Below are positions 21,076 through 53,760 of a stretch of 64,000 nt of DNA, in pieces. Under the pieces are notes generated by a model that was not told where the DNA came from, made no database searches, and saw only the letters and a program-made list of their open reading frames with translations. The position numbers and the translations under genes are program-made. Location: contig OZ020625.1 of the NCBI GenBank assembly GCA_963971575.1, positions 15,353,646-15,417,645 of the forward strand, read 5' to 3'. The DNA is from Liopterus haemorrhoidalis. Lineage: Eukaryota; Arthropoda; Insecta; Coleoptera; Dytiscidae. Numbering within the stretch: the stretch's first letter is position 1; every line of letters begins with the position of its first letter.

Positions 21076-21420
21076 TTGTTCCAGAGACAAACCCATAACA
21101 AATGGGTTGCTTCCATTTTTTTTTAATACCACGGAGCATTAAAACGATGACATGGTCAGCAAATTCTCTTTTTCTTTCTCCACTGCAATCTACAAATAGG
21201 GTTGCCATCTCTCCAGGTTTGGCCCGGAGACTCCGGATTTCAGTGAGTTATCTCCGGGCTCCGGGTTTAACTATTATTTTTCGCGCCAAAACATCGCTAT
21301 TGCGGAGAAGATCGACGCGCGCACACTCGATTGCACCGTTCGTATTAGTACGACGCGCGAAACCACGTGGATAGAAGTAGTATAGCAATGATCGTTCTGC
21401 CTCATTTCAAGGCCACATAG
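21076..21420. other. Non-coding flank left of the Polinton
   Basis: No gene is supported. It includes a short GC-rich stretch (about 21190-21370, with CTCCGGG repeats and several CGCGC sites) unlike the AT-rich surroundings, possibly a fragment of another element. Confidence 0.5.
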
Positions 21421-21884
21421 ACACTTTACTTCCACATTTTACTTTCTCGTCCCATCCCCCTCCACATTTTACTTTCTGGTCACATCGCCAGGTGTTTTCA
21501 AGAAGGTCATATTTTTCAGACGTTGCGTGTTTAGCCCGAGGCGAGTTGCAACCTTAATTTCACACCCCGCCCCAACCCTAATTTCACACCCCGCCCCAAC
21601 CCTAATTTCACACCCCGCCCCTAGCCTAGACATGTTATTGTCGTTAGAATGTGAGGTCATATTTACTTTTTATAAAAATGAAAATATTGCGTTAGAAGGA
21701 TACTTAGAATGTCGTTTAGAATTAGAATGTTAAGGTTATAATTATATTTAATTTATAAAAATCAAAATAGTTACGTTGAAAGGTAATATATATTTAACTT
21801 TTATATTACAATCTGGTGTAACCTTCTCAACATGATATTAATCTAATGATCTGAAAAAGGGTCATTAAATAAAACATAGTTTGT
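21421..21884. repeat. Polinton left terminal inverted repeat
   Basis: Starts ACACTTTACTTCCACATTTT and pairs with the complement of 38086-38433. Contains three copies of a GC-rich ~24-bp unit (CTAATTTCACACCCCGCCCC) where the right repeat has two, plus about 100 extra bases. The inner end (GATCTGAAAAAGGGTC onward) is almost identical between ends. Confidence 0.9.
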
Positions 21885-21987
21885 ATATTTTTCACATGTG
21901 AATTTATTGAAATCATAAAACATTACAAATATATCATTACACACTTTTATCATATTTTATACGTTAAGTATACATATTAAAAGAAAA

Positions 21988-23208
21988 TTACAATACACGT
22001 ACAATACTGGTTGTAGGAGAATATTTAACAATTTTATCATGTAAAATTAAACAATATGCAGTAGTATTCGCAGGCATGTTTTCACCAGTTTCAAATTCCA
22101 AACGTACTTCTACAGCTCCAGATTTTAATACTTCATTCTGATGAGTGCAGTCAATAACCACCAATGGTGCGAATCTTTTAAAATCATCTGGTGACATTAT
22201 CGGCCCATTATCTCGACCGTAATAAGATGATTGAAACTGTGCATACATATCATATAACATTGCATAACAATTTTGCTTAAAGTTCAAATTTAAATTATCA
22301 TACGGATATATTTCAGAATTTAAATATAATTTTATATTAGTTAAATTACAATGGTTAAATATACTCATACTTTTACCCAAATCATTTTTCACATTTGTCT
22401 GCAATCCGAAAATGATAAATCGAGGTTTTTCAAGTTGAGAGGTAGTTTTCACCGCCCAGGTATGATGTTGAGTTTCTTGCAAAACGGGATACTCGATCAA
22501 CTCCCAACTTCTAAACGCTAATTGCAGTTCAGCATTAGCATTAAGTAAATTCAACAACATTAAGCGTTCCGCATCTGCCACTGAAATGTGTGGAATCTTC
22601 CACTGAACTTTATTTAGTTCAAGTTTTAGTTTTTCTGTAGCAACAGAATTTTTAAAAGCATTATTATCCGTGTTGCTGCGTATGAGAACCAACTCTTGAC
22701 GCAAGTTCATTATAATTTTTCGGAAATCCTCAGCAAAACCAAGCATCATTTTTAGTGGTATACATACATTGAAGTAACCCTTTTCATCTATTAACGAATC
22801 AGCAGTCTCTGAACACCCATACCAGCCAGCGTTTTTCAACGCCTTACTTTCATTCTGGTTGCATGAAACAAACGATTTCATAGTGGTTGTAATACCCGGA
22901 TTTCGAACCCTATCAATTACAACCCCGTTCACTTCATAGCGAATTTCATCGAATAAAAATGCAATACCATTATTCGTAAATTTTACGTTGGTCGAAGGTT
23001 TTCCATCCTCCTTAGTTACTCTACCTTCTATGTAAATTAAACTGTTCCACGGTAGAGTATAAGTATCCTGCTGGGGGATCGGTATCCGAATCTCATCATT
23101 ATTGTTAAAAGTGGTTGATGAGTATGGTTGATGAGTGTGTTTCTCTGCGTTAACAATAGAATTATCTTCTAGAGCACGTTCTGTTACATTTAAAATATTA
23201 AGATCCAT
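21988..23208 (-). CDS. Major capsid (hexon-like, double jelly-roll) protein
   Basis: 406 residues starting MDLNILNVTERALEDNS. It is assigned by position beside the penton, protease and PLA2 genes and by its resemblance to the beta-rich ~400-residue proteins at this position in insect Polintons/adintoviruses. Visible features are an N-terminal IPIPQQDTYTLPWNS strand region, IYIEGRVT, and C-terminal LILHDKIVKYSP. It is predicted to form the trimeric capsomer. The ORF is intact. No jelly-roll can be proven by eye; a structure prediction would settle it. Confidence 0.68.
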   Translation of the reverse strand: MDLNILNVTERALEDNSIVNAEKHTHQPYSSTTFNNNDEIRIPIPQQDTYTLPWNSLIYIEGRVTKEDGKPSTNVKFTNNGIAFLFDEIRYEVNGVVIDRVRNPGITTTMKSFVSCNQNESKALKNAGWYGCSETADSLIDEKGYFNVCIPLKMMLGFAEDFRKIIMNLRQELVLIRSNTDNNAFKNSVATEKLKLELNKVQWKIPHISVADAERLMLLNLLNANAELQLAFRSWELIEYPVLQETQHHTWAVKTTSQLEKPRFIIFGLQTNVKNDLGKSMSIFNHCNLTNIKLYLNSEIYPYDNLNLNFKQNCYAMLYDMYAQFQSSYYGRDNGPIMSPDDFKRFAPLVVIDCTHQNEVLKSGAVEVRLEFETGENMPANTTAYCLILHDKIVKYSPTTSIVRVL

Positions 23209-23325
23209 TTTTCCTAGTACACTTGAAAACTGTACTGATTTTAATCCTAATCCAAATAACTACCGTAGAGAATTTATTCTTCTTCTTCTTCTTGTCAGCA
23301 AGATCTTTTATTTTACCACCAATTT

Positions 23326-23475
23326 TTAAATCTTAATTTGAAGTCCAAGCGATTGCAGAAATTTCCGATTATCCAACGTTAACTGTTTGACCGTCCTTAA
23401 CGAACTGGGTTTTTTAAACTCATACGGTTTATTTATTACCGTGCGAATAGTGGGTTGATTGTATTTAATGACCAT
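23326..23475 (-). CDS. Small basic 49-residue protein overlapping the penton gene
   Basis: ATG at 23475 lies inside the last codons of the penton-like gene (11-base overlap); stop at 23326. The product starts MVIKYNQPTIRTV, is Lys/Arg-rich and ends in a FLQSLGLQIK motif. The tight overlap and downstream position in the capsid block suggest co-expression with virion genes. Function is unknown; a small core or scaffold-type peptide is a guess. Confidence 0.5.
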   Translation of the reverse strand: MVIKYNQPTIRTVINKPYEFKKPSSLRTVKQLTLDNRKFLQSLGLQIKI

Positions 23476-24184
23476 TCTGAGCTACTTTCTTTAGATGTAG
23501 TCTTAACGTTATGACTTCATCCCTGAAATTGATTAAATTGCCATCTTGATCTTGTATATGTACAATAATCGATCTTATACTACGTGTGTTTATAGGCATG
23601 TAAATCGTATTTTGTGGATTTTCAATAATTTTTTCACCAGGTTCTACATTTGGGAAAAATTCATGAATAATATGCGTTTGTTCATTATTATTATATGATC
23701 CTGATATCAAATTGCACATAATACATATAGCGTTTACTTTGAGAATATTTATTGGATAATCAGCTATATGTACCTCATTAGCTTTTAGAAGATTGGATTT
23801 ATACCCCAATAATTCTCTGAAGGTATCATTTCTAGTGAAATCAATATCTTGACTTGCTAATATTTCACATTTTAAAGTACTTCTGTTCGCCTTTATTATT
23901 AATGTTTGTTTCCCACCCGGAGCATCCTCATTCAGTTTTTTAATAAACCTGTTCAAGTATGTTTTTATATCCCTCACTTCGTATGATCCTGTTGGTAATT
24001 CACATTTTTTATCACCAAAATAGAAACAATTATTAACACTCTCTTCAATGTTTGGAATCGCATTATATGACTCACAATTAATTAACCCCAACACATATTC
24101 CCCATCATCATCTAAATCAATAGCAGGATTAATATCTGCAGTTAAGATAGAGCTGCGTCCTGTGAGAGTGAACGTGTATGACAT
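23465..24184 (-). CDS. Minor capsid (penton-like) protein
   Basis: 239 residues, starting MSYTFTLTGRSSILTADINP. Alternating hydrophobic strands and the motifs LINCESYNAIPNIE and IHEFFPNVEPGEKI place it with the small conserved capsid protein found next to the major capsid gene in Polintons and adintoviruses, predicted to be a single jelly-roll at the fivefold vertices. The ORF is intact. The assignment is by family resemblance and synteny. Confidence 0.65.
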   Translation of the reverse strand: MSYTFTLTGRSSILTADINPAIDLDDDGEYVLGLINCESYNAIPNIEESVNNCFYFGDKKCELPTGSYEVRDIKTYLNRFIKKLNEDAPGGKQTLIIKANRSTLKCEILASQDIDFTRNDTFRELLGYKSNLLKANEVHIADYPINILKVNAICIMCNLISGSYNNNEQTHIIHEFFPNVEPGEKIIENPQNTIYMPINTRSIRSIIVHIQDQDGNLINFRDEVITLRLHLKKVAQNGH

Positions 24185-24229
24185 GGCTTCTTTAAAGCAA
24201 CTAATATGTTACACCTTTACATATATATT

Positions 24230-24475
24230 TTATTTGTTTTCATACAAAAATTTTAAACATAAGTGACCACAATTTATATCCTTGTAAGTTTGATGCACAT
24301 CATGATTATATCTAATAATATCACAATCATTATTACTTTTAAGATATTTCACTAATTCAATCGGTGGTTTTAAGTTACCAAAACTGTCAAAGTATATAGC
24401 CACATTTTCATATTTTTTATAACACACCCAATGTGAACCAGGATGGTTAGCATCATCCAAATTTATAACACCCAT
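24230..24475 (-). CDS. Adenain-like cysteine protease, ATG-less N-terminus
   Basis: Virion-maturation protease family (C5/C48-like). In the 81-codon ATG-started frame the probable catalytic residues are His15 (GSHW), Asp30 (YFDSFG) and Cys69 (NCGHLCLKFL). Family members extend further upstream, and the same frame stays open back to about 24612 with family-like sequence (ALTNIDISKFAKKL, YFRGVFSRNELP). That ~40-codon extension contains no ATG and begins where the upstream PLA2 gene ends, in another frame. Either a non-ATG start, readthrough or loss of the start codon must be invoked. The catalytic part itself is undamaged. Confidence 0.72.
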   Translation of the reverse strand: MGVINLDDANHPGSHWVCYKKYENVAIYFDSFGNLKPPIELVKYLKSNNDCDIIRYNHDVHQTYKDINCGHLCLKFLYENK

Positions 24476-24600
24476 TTCATTTTTATTTACTTTTACGGGT
24501 AGTTCATTTCGAGAAAAGACTCCACGAAAATATGGTAATTTTAATTTTTTTGCAAATTTGCTTATATCGATGTTGGTGAGTGCACGTTCTGGTAACTTTA

Positions 24601-25416
24601 TTAACAGTTTTTTGATTTACATGGAGCTCTCAAATACATTCCATAACCTTTTTTATGTGGTCGCAAGTACAATCCTTTACCCATAGCTATCGCCTCTAAC
24701 GTTTTGTTGTGTCTCTGACTTTCTTTTAATTGTTCAGAGGCGGTACGGGCATCACCAACAGCCTTTGCAATTCCTGCTGCACCACCTCCTAAGGCTCCTA
24801 GGGCGCTAAGCCCTGCAAAAAGAGGGATCAAGGGAAGAAAGCCACCAGATTTTGGTAGTGGTATTACACGCGGTGTTCCAATTTTTTTCTTTATTTGTTT
24901 GATTGAGCGGAGAGCTACTTGAGCTGCTTTCTCTATGTTTACAGGTTTATTTTTTCTGATGGCAGTACGAGCCCGTTTCACTACATCACGAAAAGAGATA
25001 ACTCCCTGACTTTTTCGTTTCCTAGTCTTACGCTTAATCGTGGATTGTTTGTTAACCATACCCATGCCTAACTTCACTTTTGCCTTCATAGCTGATTTTA
25101 CTCCGAGCGATGCAATTTTTTCACCTATTGATGCGTCTGATGATTTGAGACGTTGAGATGCCTCCTCAGCTAGAATCCGATCTGCTTCGTGTCGATCTTT
25201 AATTTTTTCACTTAGATTATAGGCGATATCGTGTTGTTTGCAAGCCTCGTCTAACCTATTTATTCCAGGGTCCCCACGCAGTAATCTTTTCTCTAAGCGG
25301 GTACCAGGACCACAATATCTATATCCTGGGATATGAAGTTCAATTGGAAGTTTGTTTATTAAAGTGTTTAAGAAACCTGCACCCTGTTTGCGATACACAC
25401 CTCTCTGATCATACAT
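24601..25416 (-). CDS. Phospholipase A2-bearing basic virion protein (VP1-like)
   Basis: 271 residues. A Ca-binding loop YCGPGT (34-39) and ACKQHDIAY with catalytic His62-Asp63 match the parvovirus VP1 type of phospholipase A2, used in that family to breach endosomal membranes. Then come a Lys/Arg-rich middle, a Gly/Ala-rich hydrophobic segment (~202-231, LIPLFAGLSALGALGGGAAG) and a conserved C-terminal GKGLYLRPHKKGYGMYLR motif of adenovirus-core-like look. It sits first in the minus-strand capsid block, diverging from the ATPase. Intact. Role in entry is inferred from the domain. Confidence 0.75.
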   Translation of the reverse strand: MYDQRGVYRKQGAGFLNTLINKLPIELHIPGYRYCGPGTRLEKRLLRGDPGINRLDEACKQHDIAYNLSEKIKDRHEADRILAEEASQRLKSSDASIGEKIASLGVKSAMKAKVKLGMGMVNKQSTIKRKTRKRKSQGVISFRDVVKRARTAIRKNKPVNIEKAAQVALRSIKQIKKKIGTPRVIPLPKSGGFLPLIPLFAGLSALGALGGGAAGIAKAVGDARTASEQLKESQRHNKTLEAIAMGKGLYLRPHKKGYGMYLRAPCKSKNC

Positions 25417-25477
25417 TACAAATGATTAAATAAATAAAAATGTTGAGATATTTATTAGTTTTCCTCCAACAACCACC
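25417..25477. promoter_or_regulatory. Divergent intergenic region, likely bidirectional promoter
   Basis: Only 61 bases separate the start codons of the minus-strand capsid block and the plus-strand ATPase. The interval is AT-rich with AAATAAATAAAAA and TATTTATTAG stretches. ACCACC precedes the ATPase ATG, giving a good eukaryotic start context. Confidence 0.45.
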
Positions 25478-26164
25478 ATGCGTGTAGTAAAACAATCCCA
25501 AACATTAAACGTTGTAAATTGTGATATTGAATGCAAACAAAAACAAAGGCATAGTACCTTACTACCTTCAATTGTTAGATGTTTGATTTCTGGTCCGAGC
25601 GGTTGCGGGAAAACAAATATAATCGTTGCATTAATTGAACATCCAAACGGTTTACGTTTTGAAAATGTAAATGTTTATTCCAAGTCTCTGTATCAACCCA
25701 AGTATAAGTATTTGGAACAGTTGTTGAAACCGATAAATGGCATTACGTTTAAAGCATTTAACAGTTGTGAAAAAATTGTATCGCCTGCTCATACAAAATG
25801 TAATACTGTTTTTATATTTGATGATATTATGACAAGTAGACAGGACGTAGTACGTCAGTATTTTTCCATGGGGCGACATTTTCTGGTTGACTGTTTCTAC
25901 CTTGCCCAGACATATTCAAAAATTCCGAAACAACTCATTCGTGATAATTCAAATTTAATCATTCTATTCAAACAAGATGAAATGAATTTGAAGCACGCGT
26001 ACACAGATCACGTGGGAACAGATATGAATTACAATGAATTCAGAGACATGTGTTCGTTTTGCTGGCGTGACAATTATGGTTTTTTGTTAATTAATAAAGA
26101 ATGTGCTTTGAATAGTGGTCGCTACAGGAAAGGTTTTGATCATTTTTTAATATTGGATAAATAA
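25478..26164 (+). CDS. FtsK/HerA-type genome-packaging ATPase
   Basis: 228 residues. Walker A GPSGCGKTN at about 37-45 and Walker B TVFIFDDI at about 110-117, followed by a sensor-like DCFYLAQTY. This is the compact packaging ATPase of Polintons, adintoviruses and related DNA viruses. It is predicted to pump DNA into the capsid. The ATG is the first in frame and has ACCACC upstream. Length fits the family and no breaks are visible. Confidence 0.88.
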   Translation: MRVVKQSQTLNVVNCDIECKQKQRHSTLLPSIVRCLISGPSGCGKTNIIVALIEHPNGLRFENVNVYSKSLYQPKYKYLEQLLKPINGITFKAFNSCEKIVSPAHTKCNTVFIFDDIMTSRQDVVRQYFSMGRHFLVDCFYLAQTYSKIPKQLIRDNSNLIILFKQDEMNLKHAYTDHVGTDMNYNEFRDMCSFCWRDNYGFLLINKECALNSGRYRKGFDHFLILDK

Positions 26165-26191
26165 TTCGGATGGAGCAAATTGTTCCCAGTA

Positions 26192-26366
26192 ATAAAATAG
26201 AGTCGGAGAAGAAAACAGCTCTGTTTAGTTTGTTTTTACCTAATTTTAACCTGTTTTAACATATTTTTAGTTGTTTTGGGGGAGTAGAGCAGATTTTTTC
26301 TAGAAATAAAATAGATTTGGTGAAGAAAACAGCTCTGTTTAGTTGTTTTTAACCTGTTTTAGTAGT
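26192..26366 (+). promoter_or_regulatory. Two direct repeats before the 350-residue gene
   Basis: A ~60-bp unit containing GAAGAAAACAGCTCTGTTTA occurs at about 26192-26260 and again at about 26305-26366, directly ahead of the ATG at 26367. The duplicated block replaces any ORF here and may hold promoter or leader elements. Confidence 0.5.
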
Positions 26367-27419
26367 ATGGATAAAAAACTGAAAGAGAGGTTGGTAAAAA
26401 CTCGCAAAACGGTTAAACGAAAACTGCAAGCTTTAAAAGAAGGTGCTAAAGAGCAGGAAAGCCAGCTAGAGAAATCATATGAACCGGTTACAAAACAACT
26501 GAAAGAACTAACGAGTAAGTTTTATGATGTGAGTGCGATTAAACAAGAAGAAAATCATGAAGAAAATTTAAAAGGTGAACCAAAAATTGAAAAACATTCC
26601 TCTTCAAACGTAAAAAAACCTTCCAAATCAGTACCAAATGTTTTCGATGCTAGTACAACAACCGATCAGGAAATTCCCTCATTTCTCGAGAGTAGTGTAA
26701 TTGCACAGAATGCACCAAGCATGGAGGAAGAAGAAGAAGATCGAGATATTGATTATAGTTATTTATCAAATATTCTAGCTAAATCAATGTCTGAGGAAGC
26801 ATGGGAAGAATATCTTACACAGTATCACCCACTACCACGTCAATACATTGAAGAAATGATAACACATGAGGGTACTAAATTTGATCATACAACCGGTATA
26901 ACTTTAAATCCGATTAGTAACAAATTTAAAATTGCTAATGCTGATGTTGACTTTGTTGATAAAGATATAGTTATAAATAATGTAAAATATAGTGGCACCC
27001 CTGGTCTGTACGAACTACTTTTTAAAAGTAAACCTTCAGGTTATACTAAAGTTGACAATGCCAATTATCATGATATTCTAGAGAGATTTAATGTTCATAA
27101 AAGAAATTATGATCCTGATGAGCAGGTGCGTGGGAATCGCTCACTAAAATATAGAACAATTATTAAACCGTTACTAACACAAACAACATCAACTCCGAGA
27201 CGGGTTTCTAAAAGACAGGTTGTGAAAGGTTTGCATGGGGGAGGATTACTTATGAATTATAGTAATAATCCTGTGGAATATGTACACTGGGATGATCCAA
27301 ACGAGCTAGTTGATAGATTGAAGCTTTTAATTGCATCCCAAGTGGCTGGTAACAACAATCATAATAATGAAATTGTATCCATCATTGAAGAGTTAAAAGA
27401 AGCCAACATTATTCAATAA
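26367..27419 (+). CDS. Uncharacterised Polinton protein (DUF8207-like)
   Basis: 350 residues from the ATG at 26367 (MDKKLKERLVKTRK). The N-terminus is a Lys/Glu-rich predicted coiled coil (1-70), the middle is acidic and Ser-rich, and the C-terminal half has the conserved-looking SGTPGLYELLFKSKPSGYT and RGNRSLKYRTIIKPLL. These motifs recur in hypothetical proteins beside the integrase of insect Polintons; the DUF8207 name is from memory. Position between packaging ATPase and fibre-like gene suggests a virion or assembly role. No catalytic motif is seen. Confidence 0.55.
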   Translation: MDKKLKERLVKTRKTVKRKLQALKEGAKEQESQLEKSYEPVTKQLKELTSKFYDVSAIKQEENHEENLKGEPKIEKHSSSNVKKPSKSVPNVFDASTTTDQEIPSFLESSVIAQNAPSMEEEEEDRDIDYSYLSNILAKSMSEEAWEEYLTQYHPLPRQYIEEMITHEGTKFDHTTGITLNPISNKFKIANADVDFVDKDIVINNVKYSGTPGLYELLFKSKPSGYTKVDNANYHDILERFNVHKRNYDPDEQVRGNRSLKYRTIIKPLLTQTTSTPRRVSKRQVVKGLHGGGLLMNYSNNPVEYVHWDDPNELVDRLKLLIASQVAGNNNHNNEIVSIIEELKEANIIQ

Positions 27420-27432
27420 AATCAGTATCAAA

Positions 27433-27804
27433 ATGCCCATCAACAAGTTTGGACATCATGCAACAAAATACCGTCATTATGATGATGACGATGATGATGA
27501 TGCATATAATTTCAATAACAGGCGAATAGCAAACGTTGGTGATCCTATAAATGATAATGATGTAGTTAATAAAAAATATATGAGACAGGAATTGGATTCT
27601 ACATCAATTAAATTAAATGATCGGATTCAAAAGCATAGGGATGATATTGATATCATATTGAAACGTGTAATATCAGTAGTAAAAAGAGTAGTTGAAGAGT
27701 TGAAGATGCTGAAACCTGAAATAGAAGATACTTCAAGCAAGAGCGTTCAGTTAGACCTCGATTCTGTTACAACAACAACGGGTACAGTGACAACCGTTGA
27801 ATGA
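27433..27804 (+). CDS. Fibre-like coiled-coil protein
   Basis: 123 residues. Residues 17-23 are seven consecutive Asp. Residues 34-49 read NVGDPINDNDVVNKKY, closely resembling the repeat found at the shaft of phage and adenovirus-like fibres (NVGDP...D.VNK.Y). Then follows a long heptad-rich region (~50-105) and a Thr/Val-rich tail. A trimeric attachment or vertex protein is a reasonable inference. It lacks a visible receptor-binding head. It lies 13 bases after the previous stop and 6 bases before the integrase start. Confidence 0.5.
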   Translation: MPINKFGHHATKYRHYDDDDDDDAYNFNNRRIANVGDPINDNDVVNKKYMRQELDSTSIKLNDRIQKHRDDIDIILKRVISVVKRVVEELKMLKPEIEDTSSKSVQLDLDSVTTTTGTVTTVE

Positions 27805-27810
27805 TTGAAC

Positions 27811-28740
27811 ATGTCTAAAGCAAAACGTGATGTTGTTAATGAATTACATAGATCTGCAAGGATTAATTTTAAACGGAGACAAGTTATCATTAAAGGTTTA
27901 GATGAAACATTTCAAGCAGATTTGGTAGAAATGCTTCCGTATGCGCGACTAAATAAAGGATATCGATACATACTGGTGGTGATCGATACATTTTCAAAAT
28001 ATGTGTGGGCTGAACCAGTTAAAAGTAAATCAGGAATTGATGTGTCTAAAACAATGCAAAAATTTTTTTCTAGAAATAATCGAATTCCTAAAAATCTACA
28101 AACTGATATGGGTAAAGAATTTTATAATAAAGAGTTTAAAAAATTAATGGAAAAATATAATATTAACCATTACTCAACATTTAGTAGCAAGAAAGCGAGT
28201 ATTGTGGAGCGTGTAAATCGTTCACTTAAATCACTCATGTGGAAGGAGTTTAGCTTTCAGGGAACATACAAATGGCTACAATTATTGCAAGATATTGTGT
28301 TGAAGTATAATATGAGGAAGCATAGCACGATTAATATGAGACCGATTGATGTTATAAAAAAGATTGAAAAACAGGTGTTGAATACCTCTTATAATCGTAT
28401 TAAAATTGCTGATATAAAGTCAAAATACAGGGTTGGTGATCATGTGCGTATAAGCAAATATCGTAGTGAATTTGAAAAGGGTTACACACCAAACTGGTCA
28501 AACGAAATATTCATTATCTCAAAGATATGTTTAACAAACCCTACCACATATATCCTGAAGGATTTTACAGATCAACCAATACAGGGAGGATTTTACAACG
28601 AAGAATTGCAAAAAGTGAAACATTCTGACTTGTACTTGGTTGAAAAAGTGCTTAAACGAAAAGGTGATTTGGTGTTTGTAAAGTGGTTGGGGTTTAATAA
28701 TAATCACAACAGTTGGATACATAAAAGCAATGTAGAGTAA
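27811..28740 (+). CDS. Polinton integrase with C-terminal chromodomain
   Basis: 309 residues from the ATG at 27811. RNase H-fold rve core with catalytic Asp37 (QADLVEM), Asp99 (QTDMGKEF) and Glu133 (SIVERVNR). The N-terminus (ELHRSARINFKRR) has no HHCC zinc site, as usual for these integrases. The C-terminus (YLVEKVLKRKGDLVFVKWLGF, from about 270) is a chromodomain with its aromatic residues, likely steering insertion to modified chromatin. No breaks are visible. It mediates insertion of the linear element and is the retroviral-type hallmark of Polintons. Confidence 0.92.
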   Translation: MSKAKRDVVNELHRSARINFKRRQVIIKGLDETFQADLVEMLPYARLNKGYRYILVVIDTFSKYVWAEPVKSKSGIDVSKTMQKFFSRNNRIPKNLQTDMGKEFYNKEFKKLMEKYNINHYSTFSSKKASIVERVNRSLKSLMWKEFSFQGTYKWLQLLQDIVLKYNMRKHSTINMRPIDVIKKIEKQVLNTSYNRIKIADIKSKYRVGDHVRISKYRSEFEKGYTPNWSNEIFIISKICLTNPTTYILKDFTDQPIQGGFYNEELQKVKHSDLYLVEKVLKRKGDLVFVKWLGFNNNHNSWIHKSNVE

Positions 28741-28783
28741 AACTGGTGTTCAATTCGTTGCTTCTAGGCTTCCAGGGATCATC

Positions 28784-29549
28784 ATGCGTTCTATGATAGT
28801 TGATTTACAAGGATTCAAAATAGTGAAAAATAATGAATTTATATGTAAAGAACTCGCTGTAGTTGATGTGGAAAGGTGAAATATGTATTTCAAAAATATT
28901 TAAACCGCCATGTCCATGGTCCGATCTGAGTTCTGAGGACAAGTACAATGCCCGATGGCTTACAAAAAAGTATCACAATTTGGAATGGTGTTGTGGAAAC
29001 GATTCATATATCAACTTTCCTACAACACTCAAGGATTTATTAGATGGTGCTGAAATTGAAAATGTATATGTGAAAGGGTTGGAGAAAGTGCAATGGTTGC
29101 AAAATTACATAGACAAGAAAATAATAAATCTTGAAAATTTAGGGTGTCCAAAACTAGCTGAGATTAGTGAACCTCTTCAAACAGACTATTGCAATTTACA
29201 TATTAATAATTGTGCTGTTCGTAATGTTAAAGCATTATTAAAATGGTTTAAAAAAACATTTAATACCTATAATGCCTTCAAAACATATCAAATTCATGGT
29301 GGTGTTTTGAATTTTATGGATGCCGAAGAAATAGCTCAACTTCCCATGGAATTTATTATGGTGTTTGCAGAAAAACAAATCAACGATCAATGGAATAAAT
29401 TTCCAGTGTCTTGGAGGAATGATACACGTTTTCAACAATATTTGTGTTGCCACACCCATTATAATGAATGGAACGGTGAAAACGAAGATGTTGTTGGTTT
29501 TTCCAATCCATTGAGGAAGGATTGTTTACAGTGTAATATAAACCAATAA
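28784..29549 (+). pseudogene. Uncharacterised Polinton gene with an N-terminal frameshift
   Basis: An ATG at 28784 opens 31 codons (MRSMIVDLQGFKIVK...) that stop at 28879. The neighbouring frame, open from about 28863 to 29549, carries the rest (FKPPCPWSDLS, WLQNYIDKK, CNLHINNCAVRNVKALLKWF, a C-terminal Cys/His cluster). The two pieces read as one protein split by a one-base shift between about 28865 and 28880. The family recurs in insect Polintons. The DLQGF start and CNLH motif loosely recall DEDD-type nucleases, but I do not recognise it securely. Confidence 0.5.
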
Positions 29550-29756
29550 TATGTATATTTTTATGTATTAATTATATCAATTTTTAAAATAAATAAATAT
29601 GTTTTAACATTAAAATAACTTTCATTTTTATATCATCATATTCCTTACAATATTCTGCTGGTGGGGAGTTGTATATAAGAGATGTAATGATCATATTTTT
29701 TGAATTAGTTGTGGGAAATAACTCACCGTAACAACCATAAAAAAGAAAGGTTAAAA

Positions 29757-30281
29757 ATGATAAAAGAAGAAAACAGGCTTAAGACGTTTGAAAATTGGCC
29801 TTGTCATTATGTACATCCACGTGATTTAGCAAGATCCGGATTTTATTATTACAACGTGGAGGACACTGTTCGCTGCCCTTTCTGCAAAATTGAAATCTGT
29901 CGTTGGGAAGATGGAGACAACCCTTCAGAAGAGCATCGGTACTGGTCAGCAAATTGTCCATTTATTAATGGACTTGATGTGGGGAATATACCAATATCTA
30001 CCGATTTTCAACATGAATTTAACATGGATATTGACGAAGTTGATTTGACATTTACAGATGGTGAAAATAACGAAAATACCGCTAAAATTCCTGATAAAAA
30101 TTTTAATAAATCGCAGGATGCTAATTTACCAGTTAACAAAAATGAGAATATGGCTGATGAAGATACAATAATATTTTCAAACCTTAATAATATCAAAATT
30201 TCAAATCGTAAATTGAAAAATATTGAAATGAATATGACTCAAGATGGAAATGAATCTATGGCAACAATTAAGTTTAAATAA
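29757..30281 (+). CDS. BIR-domain protein (IAP-like)
   Basis: 174 residues from the ATG at 29757. One complete BIR domain at residues 8-70: RLKTFENWP, LARSGFYYYN, and zinc ligands Cys40, Cys43, His60, Cys67 with the canonical C-x2-C-x16-H-x6-C spacing. The remaining ~100 residues are acidic/Asn-rich, with no second BIR and no RING. Single-BIR proteins occur in insects and in large DNA viruses of insects, where family members block caspases or act in division. Here it sits inside a Polinton, so a captured anti-apoptotic function is inferred, not shown. The frame is intact. Confidence 0.85.
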   Translation: MIKEENRLKTFENWPCHYVHPRDLARSGFYYYNVEDTVRCPFCKIEICRWEDGDNPSEEHRYWSANCPFINGLDVGNIPISTDFQHEFNMDIDEVDLTFTDGENNENTAKIPDKNFNKSQDANLPVNKNENMADEDTIIFSNLNNIKISNRKLKNIEMNMTQDGNESMATIKFK

Positions 30282-30669
30282 AGAAATTATTAATTGTATA
30301 TTATTATGTATTGTAACAATTGTAATGAAGGAATTGTAAGGAGGTATTGTAAGGAAGGAAAAATAAAAACAAAATATTCATTATAATTATTTTATTTATT
30401 TATTAATATTATAGTTACATACACATTACAGTTTATATATATATTAAGAAATTATTGTATTGTTCGATACCCCCATGGTAATGTATCTGTGTATACATAA
30501 TTTACAACCCTTTTATCGTCATGGGGGCTAAGAGTCAATTTTTTCTGTTTAACTGTAAAAACTTTATGCTTTTTGGATATAATATTGCTTTGCTCTTTTG
30601 TTATAGTGGTGTTATTAAACAAACAGTCATAGTAGTCATCAAATCCGATTGTTTTCAGAACTGCATTGG

Positions 30670-33600
30670 TTATACCTTTTGCCCGTTTACCAACCTTTTT
30701 CTTGTGTACTTGTGTACTTTGTACGCATACATTTTTGATCTTAACCCAACGAAGGAAGTCATAATATCACCATTTAATTCATCCTTCATCAAACCTATCA
30801 CCTTTTTATTGACTCGAGGCATGTTAAATATATTATTTTCGGGATAATCTGACGTATCAAACTTGTGAATATCACACTTCATCACTTTAAAAATGTCAAA
30901 ATTGAAAAAATTATATATGAGGCTATCTGTGTCTGTGTAAAGGAGTTTTGCGTTTTCACCAAAATGTTTCTTTATGTAATTATAATGAAAATCATATAAA
31001 AAAATTTTAGACAAGTCAAGAATTGAAAACCCAACGTAAATCGGTTTATTAAATATGACCTGTTTTTTATTCATTTCTATAAGTATCATGTCATCATCTA
31101 AAATTGTACAACTATGAAAATTAGGTTGGGATATATACTTCCTGGCTCCATAACGACCCTCCCACTTTGTGACCAGTTTCACATCTTTATATTTGCGTAC
31201 ATTTTCCATTGTTTTACCAAAAACAGCGTTGTTCATTAGTTTATAAAAATTCTTTTTGAACTCATTATCAGACTTTTTTCTTAATTCAGTATTTAAATTA
31301 ATATATTTTCTAAGCCATGAGCTTTGTTGAAATTTTAACACGCGGTGAATTTTGATAACTTTCATCCCGAGTTCTAAATACTGTTTCAAGTTTTGATAGT
31401 GAGTCACATAATTTTTTTTATCATATAAATTTGTAATTAATTTTGCTCGTTTAGATATAGGTGGTGTGAATTTTTCTGGACAAAGGGGTAGATCCTTATG
31501 TAACCCTTGTAACTCTAATGGATATTCTAAATCCACTTCAAAGATATAACCAATATTGGACTCATTTGAAGTTTTTAACAAATCAATTTTATAAATGTCA
31601 ACATCTGGCACCCACTCAAAATTTGCATATGGTAAAAACATAGACATAGCTGCACCATATAAGTTATTTACATCATAATACATTAAATGAGATTCAGCTT
31701 CATTATGATTATAATCCTCACCCATATACTTGTTATTAGCTTTACCATACCTGTTACAACACTGAGACACACCACCTCTAATACCTTTTTCTATAAACAT
31801 GATTTTATCAATATCTGTTAACAGTTCCAACTCAATTTCACTACACTTCAACATGGCATCAAACGCGAGGCCTGGGGCAGTATAATAATGCAAAGCATCC
31901 AATTGGTAGGTTTGCATACAGCTGTCTCGGAAACCTTGAAACACATCTGCTAGCAGCGTGATGTCTGTTTTTAAGTAGAGATCGGCATATTCACCCAACG
32001 TTTTTATACCAAATGTATTCCATACATCTTGAGCGTGTTGATAATCTTCTTCACTTACACCTTCATTTAGTAGTGTGCTGAAGAAGGCCTCTTTTGGTGG
32101 TAGATGTATATCATCAAGCTTTTCCCAAGAGTCCAAGTATTCATATGGGAATATACCCTTCCTAGTGAGTAACTTGAACTTTTCATCCGAATTACAAAAC
32201 GATCTTGTTATCGGCTTCTCAAAATCCTTCAGATACGAAGATAACTTATCCAAACTGCTTGCCATAAAACGAAATGAATCAATGAAGCGAAATTGTACTT
32301 TGGTACCCTCTACATATTTAGTAAAGGAAATGTAGCGTTCCTTATTTATCGGAAGCAAATTAACATGGCCAGGTATTCCTGTTGCAATATTTTTTATTAT
32401 GAAATGGGCGTCGTAACCGGTCAAGTTATGGAAAACAACTGGAATTACCCTCGAGGTATGAAACTTCAGGTTACATATTTGATGACTAGAACCTCGGTAT
32501 ATCGATGTTATATGACAGTGGTCACGTGTGATAATATCTCCATCTTTAAATATCCCACCACAAATATGACATACCGTAGCACTAGCAAACTGAGTTTCTT
32601 CTTCATGCGTTAATTTCATAGGTAATGTTGTTTTCATTATTTTATCAACCTTTCGAGCCAGGTGGTTTAATTGGTTGATGAACCAGTCGATACAGTCTTT
32701 ACCACGATATGCCTGAAATGTTGATAGAGTTTCATCATATGAACACTTTAAGTAGTAGCCAATGCTGAATGGTATATGTTTATGAGTATATGTAGTATTT
32801 AGTCCATGTTTATCATCAATTTTCTCTACAATTGACTCGATGTCTGCATACAACACAAACGGTACTTGGAGTTTATATTTAAAATTCTTAAATTTTAGAA
32901 TTTTATGTTCCTCATCTGGAACTTCAAGTCTGCATTTATTTGCTTCAATACAATATATCACATGTTTTTTTAATAATGTTTCTGTACTAAAATAATTGAG
33001 ACATCTATCACATAAAAACGGTTTATGAGTCTTAGAAACTTGTCTACGTAAGAGTCTGGATAAATTTTTAATCCACATAAAGTGATAATTTTCAGGGGCT
33101 CTGATGTGATTCACTGTCTGTTGATCCTGGTTATATTCAATCATTTCATCTTCTTCTTCCTGCTCACCATTAGAACACATCATCAGAAGGTGGATTGCAT
33201 TCATATTATTATTGAATTTAGTGCTGAGCTTAACCGGAACTACTTCATGTTTTCTTCCAATTTTTTCAAGGGTGTATACATTTATAACCAAATTGTTCAT
33301 ATCTTCAAATTTTGATATATCTTTTATTTTAATTGGAAAATCAATTCCATCATATTGTAATACATCTTCAAAATGTGGATAGGAAGAAACACGATCTGAG
33401 TTTTTGTGAATGGGGTATAGAGCTGACATTATAGCCCACAAAAAGCAATAATTGTCATTATTTTTAATATTTATGATTGCCTTTAAAATTTTAATATCTT
33501 GAGGCAATTCAATATATGCGCTGGCTGCGATAGGTACATTGTTATTTATGTTCACTTTTAGATGCAGAATATTGTATAAACCCCATCCAGAATCTTTTTC

Positions 33601-34230
33601 TTGAAAATTCTCTAGTTTATTTTGTAATTTTTCTTTAACATGTTCATCAAACCAGGCAGCAATATCAGTTCCGTTATCAATTTCAATGTTCTTAACGTTA
33701 AAAGTTTTTATTTCAACGTTTCCCGTTGTGGGAAGAATAAATTCTGCACTGAAGACAGTGTTAACTTTTAAGATTGAAGTTTTCAAAGCATTTCTGATTC
33801 TGTTTATAAAAATCTTCTTACTTTTTTCAAAGAATATTTTTGGATCTTTGTACCCGGGTTTGTTGATTATTGCTCCAGTTTTAATTCGATTCTTGAAAAC
33901 TGACTTTATATCCACCCATGTTAGATTATTTTGTATTCGTTTGCGTTTAAGTCCTGCTCCTATCTTCAACTGATTATTTTTTAAATTTTTTAATTTTTCA
34001 CGGTAATACTTTAAAATAATGAGATTTGCTTCCAATTTATGTATATTTTCTTTTTCACAACTCCTGTTATGATTTTTAGATGTTTGAATGACTTTTTGAA
34101 CTGTTAAAATTATTTTATTCAGATGTTTACACCAAATTTTAGCTTCATCGTTTCTTTTAATCAATGTCAAAGCATTCCTTATATTTTTAATAACTTCATC
34201 AGTAGTATTGTTAATTATGTCACAATTCAT
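30670..34230 (-). CDS. polB: Protein-primed family B DNA polymerase, C-terminus frameshifted
   Basis: 1186 codons from the ATG at 34230. In order: a conserved [15 protein letters not shown] segment (~258), a C2H2-like finger (CDRC...HVIYC, ~407-427), ExoI YADIES (Asp463, Glu465), an endonuclease VII-like Cys/His insert (CHIC...DHCH...QICN, ~554-586), Exo[12 protein letters not shown] (~601), Exo[12 protein letters not shown] (~752), PolA YDVNNLYG (~852), Pol[12 protein letters not shown] (~997) and PolC YTDTDS (~1098). All catalytic motifs are present. Near the end an 8-bp tandem duplication (TTGTGTAC at 30702-30717) shifts the frame; the family-like C-terminal ~75 residues continue in another frame to a stop at 30452. 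The protein as read ends prematurely after the thumb begins. Confidence 0.92.
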
Positions 34231-34307
34231 ATTATATATTTTAATTTTGCTATAATTAATCACCTTTTATTTAAGAAATATTATTATTATTATTTTTATT
34301 TTATCTA

Positions 34308-34628
34308 TTATTCAAAACTGAATTCGATTTCGACACTATTTGATTTATTGCTACCAGTCTTTTCACCGTGAGATATTAAATATGCGCATCCTCTTCTAGC
34401 CGCTTCGTTGGCTTGCTCTAATTGCTCGTCCTCAATGGTATTGTATCGTGACCCGAGAAATATCACAGATTCCTCCAATTCAACTAGCAACCTTTGGCCG
34501 TATCTTGTATTCACTCTTCTTAATACTATTATTTTATATTTTTGATTTACAACTAAATTATTTAACGGTAAAGTTGGTTTAGAATACCCAACTTTATTAA
34601 ATGCTGTTGCGAGATTATTTGCAGACAT
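34308..34628 (-). CDS. Small uncharacterised protein upstream of polB
   Basis: 106 residues from the ATG at 34628 (MSANNLATAFNKVG). A beta-rich core (VVNQKYKIIVLRRVNTRYGQ, LLVELEESVIFLGSRY) has the look of an OB-fold, as in single-stranded DNA-binding proteins, followed by a basic/acidic tail. It is co-oriented with polB, 77 bases ahead of its ATG, so a replication accessory role is plausible. The fold assignment is inference only. Confidence 0.55.
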   Translation of the reverse strand: MSANNLATAFNKVGYSKPTLPLNNLVVNQKYKIIVLRRVNTRYGQRLLVELEESVIFLGSRYNTIEDEQLEQANEAARRGCAYLISHGEKTGSNKSNSVEIEFSFE

Positions 34629-34729
34629 GGCTCTAATATACAATTGGCGCACGAAACTGTTTTCGTTTCGGATTGGATCCGTATTTATACTCTAAATCGG
34701 GAAAAGTGAAAGTTCTAGAAATCCTTGAT

Positions 34730-35050
34730 GAAATCAGGTCATTTGAAAATTGTAACTATTGTAAAAATTAAAATGTAAAAATGTTAAGTGGACTAGTATA
34801 AATGAACGCTGATTTAACGGTAGGTTCAAAGTGAAATCAGGTCATTTGAAAGTTGTAACTGTTGTAAAAATTAAAATGTAAAAATTAAAATGTAAAAATA
34901 TTATGTCGACTAGTATAAATGAACGCTGATTTAACGGTAGTTTCAAAGTGAAATCAGGTCATTTGAAAGTTGTAACTGTTGTAAAAATTAAATTGTAAAA
35001 ATGTTATGTTGACTAGTATAAATGAACGCTGATTGAACGGTAGTTTCATA
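34730..35050. promoter_or_regulatory. Three tandem TATA-bearing repeats
   Basis: Copies at about 34730-34832, 34833-34949 and 34950-35050. Each begins GAAATCAGGTCATTTGAAA and contains ACTAGTATAAATGAACGCTG, i.e. a TATAAA box, then TAACGGTAGTTTCA. Copy two has an internal 14-bp duplication. The array lies between the divergent 34308-34628 gene and the CHHC gene at 35085, about 35 bases upstream of the latter's ATG. A multiplied promoter is the best reading. Confidence 0.55.
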
Positions 35051-35084
35051 TTCGAACTCAAGTTTCAATTCACGAGTTTCAAGA

Positions 35085-35366
35085 ATGTACAAACAAAACA
35101 ATTTCAATCATAATTTTGTAACGTGCCCGTTCAATCCTGCACATCGTGTGTTAAAACACAGATTCAGTGTCCACGTGTTAAAGGTGCACCCTGAATCGGT
35201 CAAAAATTTTTTTAAAAACTCGGAAGAGTTGAAAATTCTGGGACCCACATCTGGACTGCAAGCCGAAAATCTCCCAGGGCCTACATCTCTAACGATTGGA
35301 TCTAGACTGCAGGCCGAAAATCTCCCAACGGTATCAATCCCAGCAGATTGTGAGAGTTGGGAGTAA
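35085..35366 (+). CDS. Single CHHC-finger protein (GTSF1/U11-48K type)
   Basis: 93 residues. Residues 14-35 read CPFNPAHRVLKHRF then SVHVLKVH: Cys, His at +6 and His at +16 fall exactly on the CHHC finger pattern (C-x5-H-x9-H-x3-C). The fourth ligand position is Val followed by His, so the last ligand is changed. CHHC fingers bind RNA in U11-48K and in the piRNA factor GTSF1, which has two. Here there is one finger plus a low-complexity tail built from repeated LQAENLP units. A host small-RNA or splicing target is an inference. Confidence 0.6.
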   Translation: MYKQNNFNHNFVTCPFNPAHRVLKHRFSVHVLKVHPESVKNFFKNSEELKILGPTSGLQAENLPGPTSLTIGSRLQAENLPTVSIPADCESWE

Positions 35367-35612
35367 ATACATCGGTAAATCGGTGAATCTATCAAAAAAG
35401 TTTTTTTAAAAAACGCGGAAGAATTGAAAATTCTGGGACCCACATCTGGACTGCAAGCCGAAAATCTTCTAGGGCCTACATCAAGATCTGGATTGTAAGC
35501 CGAAAATCAAGATCTGGACTGCAAGCCGAAAATCTCCCAGGGCCTACATCAAGATCTGGACTGCAAGCTGAAAATCTCCCAACGCCATCACTCCCAGCAG
35601 ATTGTGAGAGGA
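35206..35612 (+). repeat. Degenerate direct repeats in and after the CHHC gene
   Basis: A ~150-bp segment spanning the 3' part of the CHHC gene (CTGGGACCCACATCTGGACT ... CCCAGCAGATTGTGAGAG) recurs at about 35389-35612, with inner ~40-bp units (GGACTGCAAGCCGAAAATC) repeated several times. The second copy follows the stop codon. It looks like local amplification of the gene's low-complexity tail. Confidence 0.65.
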
Positions 35613-35664
35613 TCTTCTAAGCAAAAATTTCTCTCAACACAATACATTCCAGTAAGTACATACC

Positions 35665-36315
35665 ATGTCTTTGTACGAACAGGCAAAATTAAAAGTACGT
35701 GAAGTGTATCAGGAGCATTGGGACATTGTGAAACAAGAACTTCCCAAAACAATCTACAGAGATCTAACTTTAGATTGGTGGTTAAATAATAAAAAAATAA
35801 AACCAAAACAAAATTTAGTAGAAGAATATGATCTCTGTCCTGAGCATTATCGCGATGAATACGCACCATTCCCACCTGAAACATTTATCAAAAGTATGCA
35901 GCTTAATTTAGAAAATTTACCTAATTCTCTCACTGAAGTTTTTTCGTTCCACATTCGATATTCCCGATATGAAAAATGTTCACGTCGTGGAAGATCTACT
36001 TTAATGTGTGCTCGATGTTACGACAAACATTCTTTTGCGGTTGGCGATCAATACTGGCATCGCACATGTCATGATCTTATAAAAAATCCTTCTTGTTTCG
36101 TACAAAATGTGGTATGGAAAAAAGAAAACTGGTGTGGATTATGTTTAACAACACCTTTATTTGATTATCTATACACCAAGGATTTATGCCATGGTGTATG
36201 GATGTATCATGAAGATGGGTTTTCAGATAACGAATCGGATTCAGAATCCGAGGAGCGAAATACCACTGTTCGTCGTCGTAGATTAATTTTAAAAGAACTG
36301 TGTAGTATGAAATAA
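35665..36315 (+). CDS. Uncharacterised Cys/His-rich Polinton protein
   Basis: 216 residues from the ATG at 35665 (ACC before it). The N-terminal half is helical/charged. The middle holds a cluster of Cys and His (CSRRGRSTLMCARCYDKH, RTCHD, NWCGLC) that could bind two zinc ions. The tail is acidic (DNESDSESEE) then Arg-rich. I do not recognise the family. It is intact and lies at the right of the plus-strand block just before the hairpin. Confidence 0.55.
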   Translation: MSLYEQAKLKVREVYQEHWDIVKQELPKTIYRDLTLDWWLNNKKIKPKQNLVEEYDLCPEHYRDEYAPFPPETFIKSMQLNLENLPNSLTEVFSFHIRYSRYEKCSRRGRSTLMCARCYDKHSFAVGDQYWHRTCHDLIKNPSCFVQNVVWKKENWCGLCLTTPLFDYLYTKDLCHGVWMYHEDGFSDNESDSESEERNTTVRRRRLILKELCSMK

Positions 36316-36454
36316 AACGTACACTGTAAAAATTATTATTTTGCAATGCATGTTTCATTTAAAGAGACACACTTCTTTTAAAATTAATCTACGACAACTA
36401 ACAGTTCTTGTTACTAAAGTAATTTTTTAAAACTTCTTTGCTTTATTTAGTTTT

Positions 36455-36695
36455 CCTCGATAGGTAATGAATAGACCCCCCCTCTGACACAATTTTATTT
36501 AATTTCACTAAATTTTCCGGTCAAATTTAGTTGAAACTTCACCCAAGAAAAAAGTTGAATTCCTTAAGTCTATGACAACTAACAGTAGGAATTCAACTAT
36601 TTTCTTGGGTGAAGTTTCAACTAAATTTAACCGGAAAATTTAGTGAAATTAAATAAAATTGTGTCAGAGGGGGGGCTATTCATTAGTTATCGAGG
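36455..36695. repeat. Near-perfect inverted repeat (109-bp arms, 24-nt loop)
   Basis: Arms 36455-36563 and 36588-36695 are complementary with only a few mismatches; the loop is 36564-36587. Outer ends CCTCGATA / TATCGAGG, inner ends GGAATTC. The arms also contain a CCCCCCTCTGACAC block. A transcript through here would form a long double-stranded hairpin. No terminal transposon signature or target duplication was found. Confidence 0.92.
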
Positions 36696-37579
36696 TAAAC
36701 TGCACAAAGCAATTTTTTTTATTTTTTTTTTTTTATTTTTTTTTTTTTAATTTTTTTTTATTATAATTTTAGTTTAAATTATTTTTTAATTATTTTACAG
36801 TACACGTTCAAAGAGAGACAGTTTATTAATTAAAAATTGTGTGAGTACGGCTCTGTATAGTGAACGCTAGTATCTAGGTCAAGTCGCTGTATGCGGCGAA
36901 CTCAAGCAGTACCGGTTACCGTACGTCCGTTTGCTGCACTAAGAGACATTTTCCCCGATAGACTTTGCTCCCAGGTATTAAGTTCTTAAAAACAGTTGAA
37001 TTCTATACCGATTTTTGTTTTTTCTAACTAAGTATACAAAGTATTTTTAGTTGTATTTGTTAGTTTCTTTTAACATATATTTTTCATGTATTTTATTGTA
37101 AGTTATTGTAAGAAATATATGTGTATATGTAAATAAATACTTTTATTTCATATTAATGTAGTAATTTTTATTTCATATTAATGATATAGGGTAAAAATAC
37201 ATGAGGGTTTTTATTACAAAATAGATTCTGTGTTAAAATAACTATGTACTTACAAGGGTCTGTTATTCTTAATTCTTTTCTTCGATATAATTTAAACAAA
37301 ACATAGGATCACTGTTTTGTAAAACCACTTAAACACTTATAACTTTAAACATAGCTACAAATGCAGTCGCCTTTATAGCAAAGAATAATAGAAAGTGAAT
37401 AGGAACGGAACGGAAAGTAGGTTAATTGATATTTAGAAATCGAAAGGGTATTTTATACTTCAATAAGATTTTTTATTTATATGTAACACATTTGCAAAAT
37501 TGTTTTAACATACGTAACGTGAAAGGATTATAAAGGAAAAACATTTACATTTTTATTAAATATTTATTAATTATTTTGA
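36696..37579. other. Non-coding part of the Polinton
   Basis: T-rich tracts at 36710-36770, then AT-rich sequence with no recognisable ORF. Confidence 0.55.
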
Positions 37580-37978
37580 TCATAAATACTCATACATAAA
37601 ATGTTTAAGATGAAAATCGTCTTTTTCTGGAAAAATTTTGAATGCTTCGGCCCACGTTGGTATATCTGTTTCATAACCAATCCCTCCAATACTTCTTTCC
37701 AGGTTATCTTTCGAGCATAAAAAAGTTCGAATCAAAGAATATTTTCCGATGACAAACCTGGCAATTACAGGTGGATCGAATGGCTCATATAATATGAGAG
37801 ATATTATTTCACCAACATTTTCCTCAAAGTTTAGATATAAATTTTCAGTTATCTGATTATTTTGCAGATCCGTTAAATAAAATAGATTTGATTGAAAACA
37901 CTGCAGATTCAATTTAGGTACTAAATCCTGAGCTAGTTTATGAACATGATACTCATTCACGAGTTTTACATAAAACAT
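37580..37978 (-). CDS. Hypothetical Polinton protein
   Basis: 132 residues, MFYVKLVNEYHVHKLAQDL..., no recognised motif. Mixed alpha/beta character with a conserved-looking GGIGYETDIPTWAEAF. It is the outermost gene on the right, 107 bases inside the terminal repeat, transcribed inward from the right end. An intact frame of this length in AT-rich DNA suggests a real gene. Confidence 0.45.
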   Translation of the reverse strand: MFYVKLVNEYHVHKLAQDLVPKLNLQCFQSNLFYLTDLQNNQITENLYLNFEENVGEIISLILYEPFDPPVIARFVIGKYSLIRTFLCSKDNLERSIGGIGYETDIPTWAEAFKIFPEKDDFHLKHFMYEYL

Positions 37979-38085
37979 GATTGTGATGTATGTGCGCGTG
38001 TGTGTGTGATATTCTCAAGACTGTGCATATTTCTTTCAAAAGTATTCATTATAAAGTTTTTCCCAACGAGGTCGCAATGTAGGCC

Positions 38086-38433
38086 ACAAACTATGTTTTA
38101 TTTAATGACCCTTTTTCAGATCATTAGATTAATATCATGTTGACAAGGTTACAATGTAATGTAATATAAATGTTACCTTCTAACTTAATTATTTTTTTAT
38201 CTAAAGTAATAGTAAATATGACCTCACATTCTAACGACAATAACATGTCTAGGCTAGGGGCGGGGTGTGAAATTAGGGTTGGGGCGGGGTGTGAAATTAA
38301 GGTTGCAACTCGCCTCGGGCTAAACACGCAACGTCTGAAAAATATGACCTTCTTGAAAACACCTGGCGATGTGACCAGAAAGTAAAATGTGGAGGGGGAT
38401 GGGACGAGAAAGTAAAATGTGGAAGTAAAGTGT
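38086..38433. repeat. Polinton right terminal inverted repeat
   Basis: Complement of 21421-21884 with two rather than three GC-rich units and shorter inner sequence. It ends GGAAGTAAAGTGT at 38433, after which the match to the left end stops. Confidence 0.9.

Positions 38434-46517: not shown

Positions 46518-53760
<7,243 letters not shown>

Follow-up and report, generated by a model that had tools for sequence, protein, structure and literature searches.

The 64,000-nucleotide stretch of the Liopterus haemorrhoidalis genome analysed here (the window) contains at positions 21376..38433 an element that is very probably a Polinton/Maverick provirus of the insect adintovirus type, the comparison with adintoviruses being made through their published definition. 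The provirus was recently integrated and is one member of a large population of several lineages in the same genome. Its adenain-like protease lies in an open reading frame (ORF) without a start codon, and the arrangement of this ORF makes it likely that the protease is produced as a -1 frameshift extension of a phospholipase A2 (PLA2) protein, in the manner of retroviral gag-pro. A wider proposal is that Polinton-type DNA viruses express the adenain-like protease in retroviral style, by a -1 frameshift that extends a virion protein which is internal and probably acts on membranes. We favour it with slightly less confidence, since in some cases the frameshift partner is something other than the PLA2 domain.

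An earlier reading of the stretch (the sequence-only reading) had described the element as Polinton/adintovirus-like, and this was supported by the gene set, the 6-bp target-site duplications of other copies, the conserved gene order and the low dN/dS values. The integrase, packaging ATPase, PLA2, BIR and CHHC zinc-finger genes that it had named were recovered by profile matches (Table 1), and the proposed major capsid protein matched a double jelly-roll (DJR) profile with high significance, rather than showing an unrelated fold. Adintoviruses are defined by a PolB with an N-terminal OTU-like domain, a hexon, and an rve integrase with a C-terminal chromodomain (PMC11071296). The window integrase has a weak C-terminal Chromo match at residues 284-311 (E 0.0032, below the Pfam cut-off). 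By published description, the core gene set matches that of Sf Maverick 1 and 2 from Spodoptera frugiperda cells (PMC5803895). These elements carry an A32-like ATPase of 228 amino acids (aa), a 310-aa integrase with a chromodomain and a PolB of 1162 aa that matches endonuclease VII weakly, and a PLA2 protein (CAP, 258 aa) is listed beside an adenain-like protease (PRO, 133 aa). Their ORF7, at 404 aa, is the size of the 406-aa window DJR protein, and PMC5803895 gives it no capsid label; BIR and CHHC genes do not appear in the tables consulted in that source, and its accessible part holds no discussion of how PRO starts. Vertebrate Mavericks (PMC8097293) have DJR and single jelly-roll capsid genes, a protease, an ATPase, an integrase and pPolB, with counterparts in the window element that are probable for the single jelly-roll protein and PolB, and they resemble the window family in their AGT-type end motifs, 6-bp duplications and core genes under purifying selection. 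However, their gene order is different, and a phospholipase is mentioned nowhere in the part of that source covered by the search.

The protease announced in the sequence-only reading is present as an ORF, although it has no start codon. Such an ORF is easily overlooked, and it was absent from the list of start-codon ORFs used here. In a comparison of the protease profile with the PDB, the best match was the adenovirus proteinase (1avp, E 0.014), aligned across the catalytic region, followed by S273R of African swine fever virus (E 0.03); other matches, at about 0.05, were due to chance. In Pfam, the C48 family was matched by two of eight members and the C5 family by one of eight, all at E values around 0.1, which is not significant. 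The protease ORF was found in the -1 frame of the overlapped upstream ORF in 28 of 29 rows (28 copies, with the window counted twice), and none of 28 loci had an ATG upstream of the conserved N-terminal block of the protease. In L029, L030 and L033, one ATG lies between this block and the FRGVF block. The PLA2 ORF of L034 ends early. The PLA2 gene of the window ends with TCA AAA AAC TGT TAA, and the conserved protease sequence starts directly after the heptamer A_AAA_AAC contained in it. A canonical in-phase heptamer was present in the overlap of all eight lineage representatives, namely A_AAA_AAC in the window, L020, L024, L026 and L037, A_AAA_AAA in L032 and L035, and U_UUU_UUA in L029. In the L029 lineage the protease overlaps a hydrophobic ORF that is separate from the ORF of the PLA2 domain, and hence the constant frameshift partner would be the hydrophobic part, not the PLA2 domain.

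In retroviral gag-pro, the protease is encoded in the -1 frame of the structural gene, with an A_AAA_AAC or U_UUU_UUA heptamer before the stop codon. The genes are unrelated to those of the element, and the likeness that we infer lies in the mode of expression only. Frameshifting would account for the expression of a protease ORF without a start codon, and a protease made as an extension of the PLA2 protein would be placed inside the particle at a fixed dose, as in gag-pro.

A distant case was obtained when IMG/VR was scanned with the protease alignment, which returned one contig, a 19.4-kb polinton-like virus (L039); a search with its own protease returned only the same contig (L040). Its capsid proteins are related to those of the window element, with hhalign values of 97% for the penton and 92% for the DJR protein. 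As in the beetle elements, its protease ORF has no ATG before the conserved block and lies in the -1 frame of the upstream ORF, with A_AAA_AAC in phase. The upstream partner protein has a hydrophobic segment and no PLA2 match. At a cut of 90 codons, a heptamer was found in one of the five tandem -1 pairs of L039, that of the protease.

Alternatively, the protease may be reached by splicing, by non-AUG initiation or by initiation after termination of PLA2 translation, the heptamers being by-products of lysine-rich, A-rich coding. We consider this unlikely, and several observations nevertheless speak for it or otherwise weigh against frameshifting. The overlap is lysine-rich, and runs of A easily yield heptamers: the chance of a heptamer per lineage was 3-31% with random codons of the same gene and 11-88% under synonymous recoding, reaching 88% in L035, so that single lineages prove little. 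Close lineages are, moreover, not independent of one another. Predicted downstream folding was weak in most lineages (-0.5 to -17.8 kcal/mol over 80 nt, and -2.8 in the window, as minimum energies with no shuffle control and no pseudoknots), which would suit a protease expressed in another way. In L031 the protease is in another frame and the A-run is altered, and interruptions within the protease ORF itself occur in L022 and L028. The broken Copia pol of the window has a heptamer at its frame break as well; among the ten tandem -1 pairs of the window at the 90-codon cut, this was the second pair to bear one, and at a 60-codon cut heptamers occurred in 2 of 15 tandem -1 pairs outside the element and in 1 of 5 inside. 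This Copia-type pol (rve, RVT_2; 43094-45807), which changes frame at an A_AAA_AAC run, was used as a warning control, and its heptamer is due to chance or mutation. On the other side, coding bias in A-runs does not fit the U_UUU_UUA of L029, for which the chance expectation is 11-12%, nor the near-constant -1 frame of the protease. In the remaining upstream codons of the eight representatives, heptamers occupied 7 of 1436 in-phase positions, and L039 is arranged alike with its heptamer at this one pair. The case for expression by -1 frameshifting draws its strength from the constancy of the frame, the lack of an AUG, the exchange of one canonical heptamer for another, and the distant L039.

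Since the site is kept or replaced in kind in the eight representatives and in a distant environmental virus, frameshifting may be an ancient trait that is general among Polinton-type viruses, and it is probably a property of Polintons undescribed so far. Among the open-licence papers searched, and within their accessible parts, the idea of frameshifting in such genes was raised by PMC11071296 only, which proposes -1 frameshifting for some penton genes of adintoviruses and for potential hexon-adenain fusions. The frameshift partner in that proposal is the hexon, whereas here it would be the PLA2 or hydrophobic protein. It is a standing question whether animal Polintons form virions, and a conserved gag-pro-like switch that packages the protease would be sensible mainly if particles assemble.

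The capsid genes form a conserved block. In all 20 further loci fetched, the DJR, penton and PLA2 genes stood together in one order and on one strand. A match to the ATPase adjoined this block in 18 of the 20 loci, with only 27 residues in L022 and with truncation at the edge of the fetched sequence in L029, L030 and L033; it was not found beside the block in L037 and L038. The ATPase stretch of L032 contains a stop codon. The DJR alignment matched no chain among the PDB profiles, and searches of the viral_contigs collection with the DJR protein found no relative. The 239-aa protein is probably the penton, as suggested by its hhalign match (97%, E 1.1e-10) to a 252-aa protein adjoining the DJR gene of L039. 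Scans of Pfam and the PDB with this protein and with the penton alignment, from which L035 was left out for a stop codon in its stretch, returned nothing credible, and the single-sequence structure prediction reached a pLDDT of 32.5 and was not used. As a separate observation, the PLA2 homologue of the lineage of L029, L030 and L033 is divided between two ORFs that differ in frame and are separated by about 700 bp (on the minus strand from about 6183 to 4698 in L029), of which the first holds PLA2 with a long charged tail and the second the hydrophobic part.

The terminal inverted repeats said to bracket the element were confirmed: 21421-21604 and 38250-38433 are complementary at 99% over 184 nt, and an imperfect continuation extends to about 21884 and 38086, respectively. 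Comparison with other copies identified these repeats as the ends of the element and not as part of a larger unrelated repeat. The left boundary proposed at 21421 had to be corrected. The true left end is at 21376, 45 bp farther out, because all seven other copies whose left ends were fetched first (L001-L004 and L006-L008) carry an outer stretch of about 45 bases, which starts with AGTAG and occurs in several sequence versions. A single regular expression for the termini matched in none of 20 loci; the ends of L022 and of the family whose DJR protein is 97% identical to that of the window (the 97% family) were then read from alignments. For L016 and L017 right ends only were fetched, and the right end of L003/L011 was not found within the stretch fetched.

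A perfect 6-bp target-site duplication was present in five of the seven other copies with both ends read (TATATG, AACACA, TAGATA, GCTATA and, in a different family, AAGGCC). Its absence from the other two (L006/L013 and L008/L015) and from the window copy counts against the provirus interpretation, although recombination between copies is a possible explanation for those two. In one copy without a duplication, the terminal versions differ between its ends, with 38 of 46 bases alike, as would be seen after recombination between copies. The missing duplication, together with the missing outer 45 bp of the right repeat, is also what could suggest that the window sequence arose by misassembly or from contaminating free virus and does not represent an integrated element. 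This is highly improbable, as the element lies within a 31-Mb contig and its relatives are found on many contigs with different flanks.

The window copy is slightly damaged and defective. Its right repeat is cut, lacking the outer 45 bp, and the frames of PolB and of the gene of the 228-residue ORF are broken. The PolB ORF stops at 30670 and the homologous C-terminus runs on in another frame, whereas at least nine other rows with 99-100% identity have PolB open over 1268 codons with no internal stop. Similarly, the 228-aa gene is open over 263 or 270 codons in all four near-identical copies read (L041-L044). The description of the element as near-complete thus holds for gene content but not for the copy itself. 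Some of the other copies are very young: the terminal repeats of two of four compared copies were identical over 482 and 487 bp, which indicates recent insertion, and those of the other two agreed at 96-97% across some 300 bp.

In the genome searched (1.02 Gb in 91 contigs), the DJR gene gave at least 103 matches, a lower bound, as 102 of 307 candidates were scored; the PolB counts are likewise lower bounds, with 39 of 646 candidates scored. By hand count, 62 of these DJR matches were near full length (from query residues 1-7 to 401-406) and had no internal stop. In seven aligned lineage representatives, the DJR protein was 45-97% identical to that of the window. Between the window and the nearer lineages L020, L024 and L026, dN/dS was 0.07-0.10 for DJR, 0.10-0.20 for the penton, 0.11-0.17 for PLA2, 0.14-0.20 for the protease and 0.11 for the ATPase, and between L024 and L026 it was 0.18-0.29 across the five genes, with dS above 0.8 in many near pairs and saturation in most distant pairs. 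The capsid, protease, ATPase and PLA2 genes are under purifying selection, with dN/dS well below 1. Purifying selection on capsid genes and the many copies free of internal stops would also be expected if the capsid block were a domesticated locus serving the host instead of a mobile virus-like element. However, the copies are on many contigs, their flanks and duplications differ, and the repeat pairs of two copies are identical, which leaves domestication with very little probability.

The capsid-integrase and replication modules have separate histories, since DJR and PolB identities disagree across copies. In the 97% family (L020, L045 and L046, pieces of one copy), the capsid side is close to the window, with identities of 94.6% for the penton, 93.7% for PLA2 and 94.7% for the ATPase, as are the integrase (96.4% over 223 aa) and the 228-aa protein (92.4%). 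In contrast, the BIR gene is 56% and PolB 51.5% identical, PolB is on the opposite strand, and the terminal repeats differ from those of the window, similarity beginning only at 21858. Two Sf Maverick lineages likewise have PolB 52% identical and on opposite strands (PMC5803895). Among the scored candidates in the genome, a DJR gene with 53% identity to that of the window (C13:736076) has, at a distance of about 2 kb, a PolB with 69% identity to the window PolB, whereas at C1:45730913 a DJR gene with 82% identity adjoins a PolB with only 62%. Adintovirus lineages mix hexon and PolB clades in the same way (PMC11071296). In the one case read at both ends, the terminal repeats had changed along with PolB and the tip AGTAGTATA was unchanged; we infer that the integrase would act on the outermost tip and the polymerase on the inner repeat. 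Given its capsid-gene matches, at least 103 in number, its recent copies and the differing histories of the capsid and replication modules, this genome is suited to studying recombination of such elements.

Two observations concern BIR genes. In the 97% family, one 499-codon ORF with repeated BIR-protein matches (L045:1655-3151) replaces the single-BIR gene, and in L026, L027 and L028 the DJR gene has two BIR-like matches next to it. The latter indicates that BIR genes changed position or were acquired on more than one occasion.

For PolB, the sequence-only reading is backed by motifs and homologues, and it was not accompanied by a Pfam polymerase match at E <= 0.1, which is a point against the assignment; a comparison with the PDB gave no relevant match. 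The assignment rests on sequence motifs, which we take to be those of a polymerase, on the homologous long ORFs of other copies and on a weak Pfam endonuclease VII match (E 0.023). A published insect Maverick PolB shows a similarly weak endonuclease VII match (E 0.02; PMC5803895). For the N-terminal OTU-like domain expected of an adintovirus PolB, candidate Cys and His motifs at residues 270 and 392 were picked by eye following PMC11071308.

From these genes a cycle can be proposed. The integrase would insert linear DNA with AGTAG ends, duplicating 6 bp of the target, and PolB would copy the DNA from its ends by protein priming. The DJR protein, penton, ATPase and protease would build the virion, the PLA2 protein may breach a membrane on entry, and the BIR protein may delay the death of the host cell.

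Table 1. Features of the element in window coordinates
Feature	Position	Strand	Basis or remark
Left terminal inverted repeat	21376..21884	+	outer tip AGTAGTATAG at 21376
DJR major capsid protein, 406 aa	21988..23208	-	PF21738, E 1.6e-126, residues 75-394; 8-lineage alignment
Probable penton, 239 aa, presumably single jelly-roll	23465..24184	-	hhalign match to 252-aa protein of L039
Adenain-like cysteine protease ORF, 128 codons	24230..24616	-	no start codon; -1 frame of PLA2 ORF
PLA2 protein, 271 aa	24601..25416	-	PF08398 (parvovirus-type), E 3.9e-13; C-terminal part hydrophobic
Slippery heptamer A_AAA_AAC	24607..24613	-	in phase with PLA2 frame, one codon before PLA2 stop
A32-like packaging ATPase, 228 aa	25478..26164	+	PF04665 (Pox_A32), E 1.9e-5, above cut-off
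349-aa protein	26370..27419	+	no Pfam family
123-aa protein with tail-fibre base motif	27433..27804	+	PHROG 30017 (unknown function), E 2.8e-6
Retrovirus-type integrase, 311 aa	27805..28740	+	rve, E 2e-13; ATG at 27811
Gene of 228-aa ORF	28784..29549	+	frame broken near start in window copy
BIR-domain protein	29709..30281	+	PF00653, E 5.3e-21; ATG at 29757
PolB, 1197 aa	30670..34263	-	motifs and homologous long ORFs; frame broken near residue 1187
114-aa ORF	34308..34652	-	no Pfam family
CHHC zinc-finger protein, 93 aa	35085..35366	+	PF05253, E 3.1e-9
216-aa ORF, Cys/His-rich	35665..36315	+	no Pfam family
Long palindrome	36438..36712	.	89-nt arms at 97-99%, outer 44-nt arms at 84%
132-aa ORF	37580..37978	-	no Pfam family
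Right terminal inverted repeat	38086..38433	-	without outer 45 bp; target-site duplication absent

Six larger ORFs, of 349, 239, 228, 114, 216 and 132 aa, have no Pfam family. The 123-aa protein could possibly be a short fibre, as its further matches are to PHROG 2710 (tail fibre, E 4e-4) and to the T7 tail-fibre model PF03906 (E 0.0053, below cut-off); the latter also has a weaker match (E 0.041) in an 841-aa protein of L039. Readthrough of the 123-aa gene into the integrase, with which it shares its frame (TGA at 27802, ATG at 27811), was considered and rejected as needless. The palindrome lies between the 216-aa and 132-aa ORFs and was also present in all three other copies read (L047-L049); it is either an old foldback insertion or a functional hairpin. 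Tandem repeats flank the CHHC gene at 34760-35002 (117 bp, 2.1 copies, 96%) and 35444-35576 (68 bp, 2.0 copies, 92%).

Adjoining the element are a GIY-YIG ORF at 18453-19013 (E 1.9e-5), which may be Penelope-like, and, at 20201-20593, a fragment of a reverse transcriptase (E 1.3e-11). The window also contains C2H2 zinc-finger ORFs at 47160-49859 on the minus strand, with at least 29 zf-C2H2 stretches, and at 5323-6621 on the plus strand, with at least 11.

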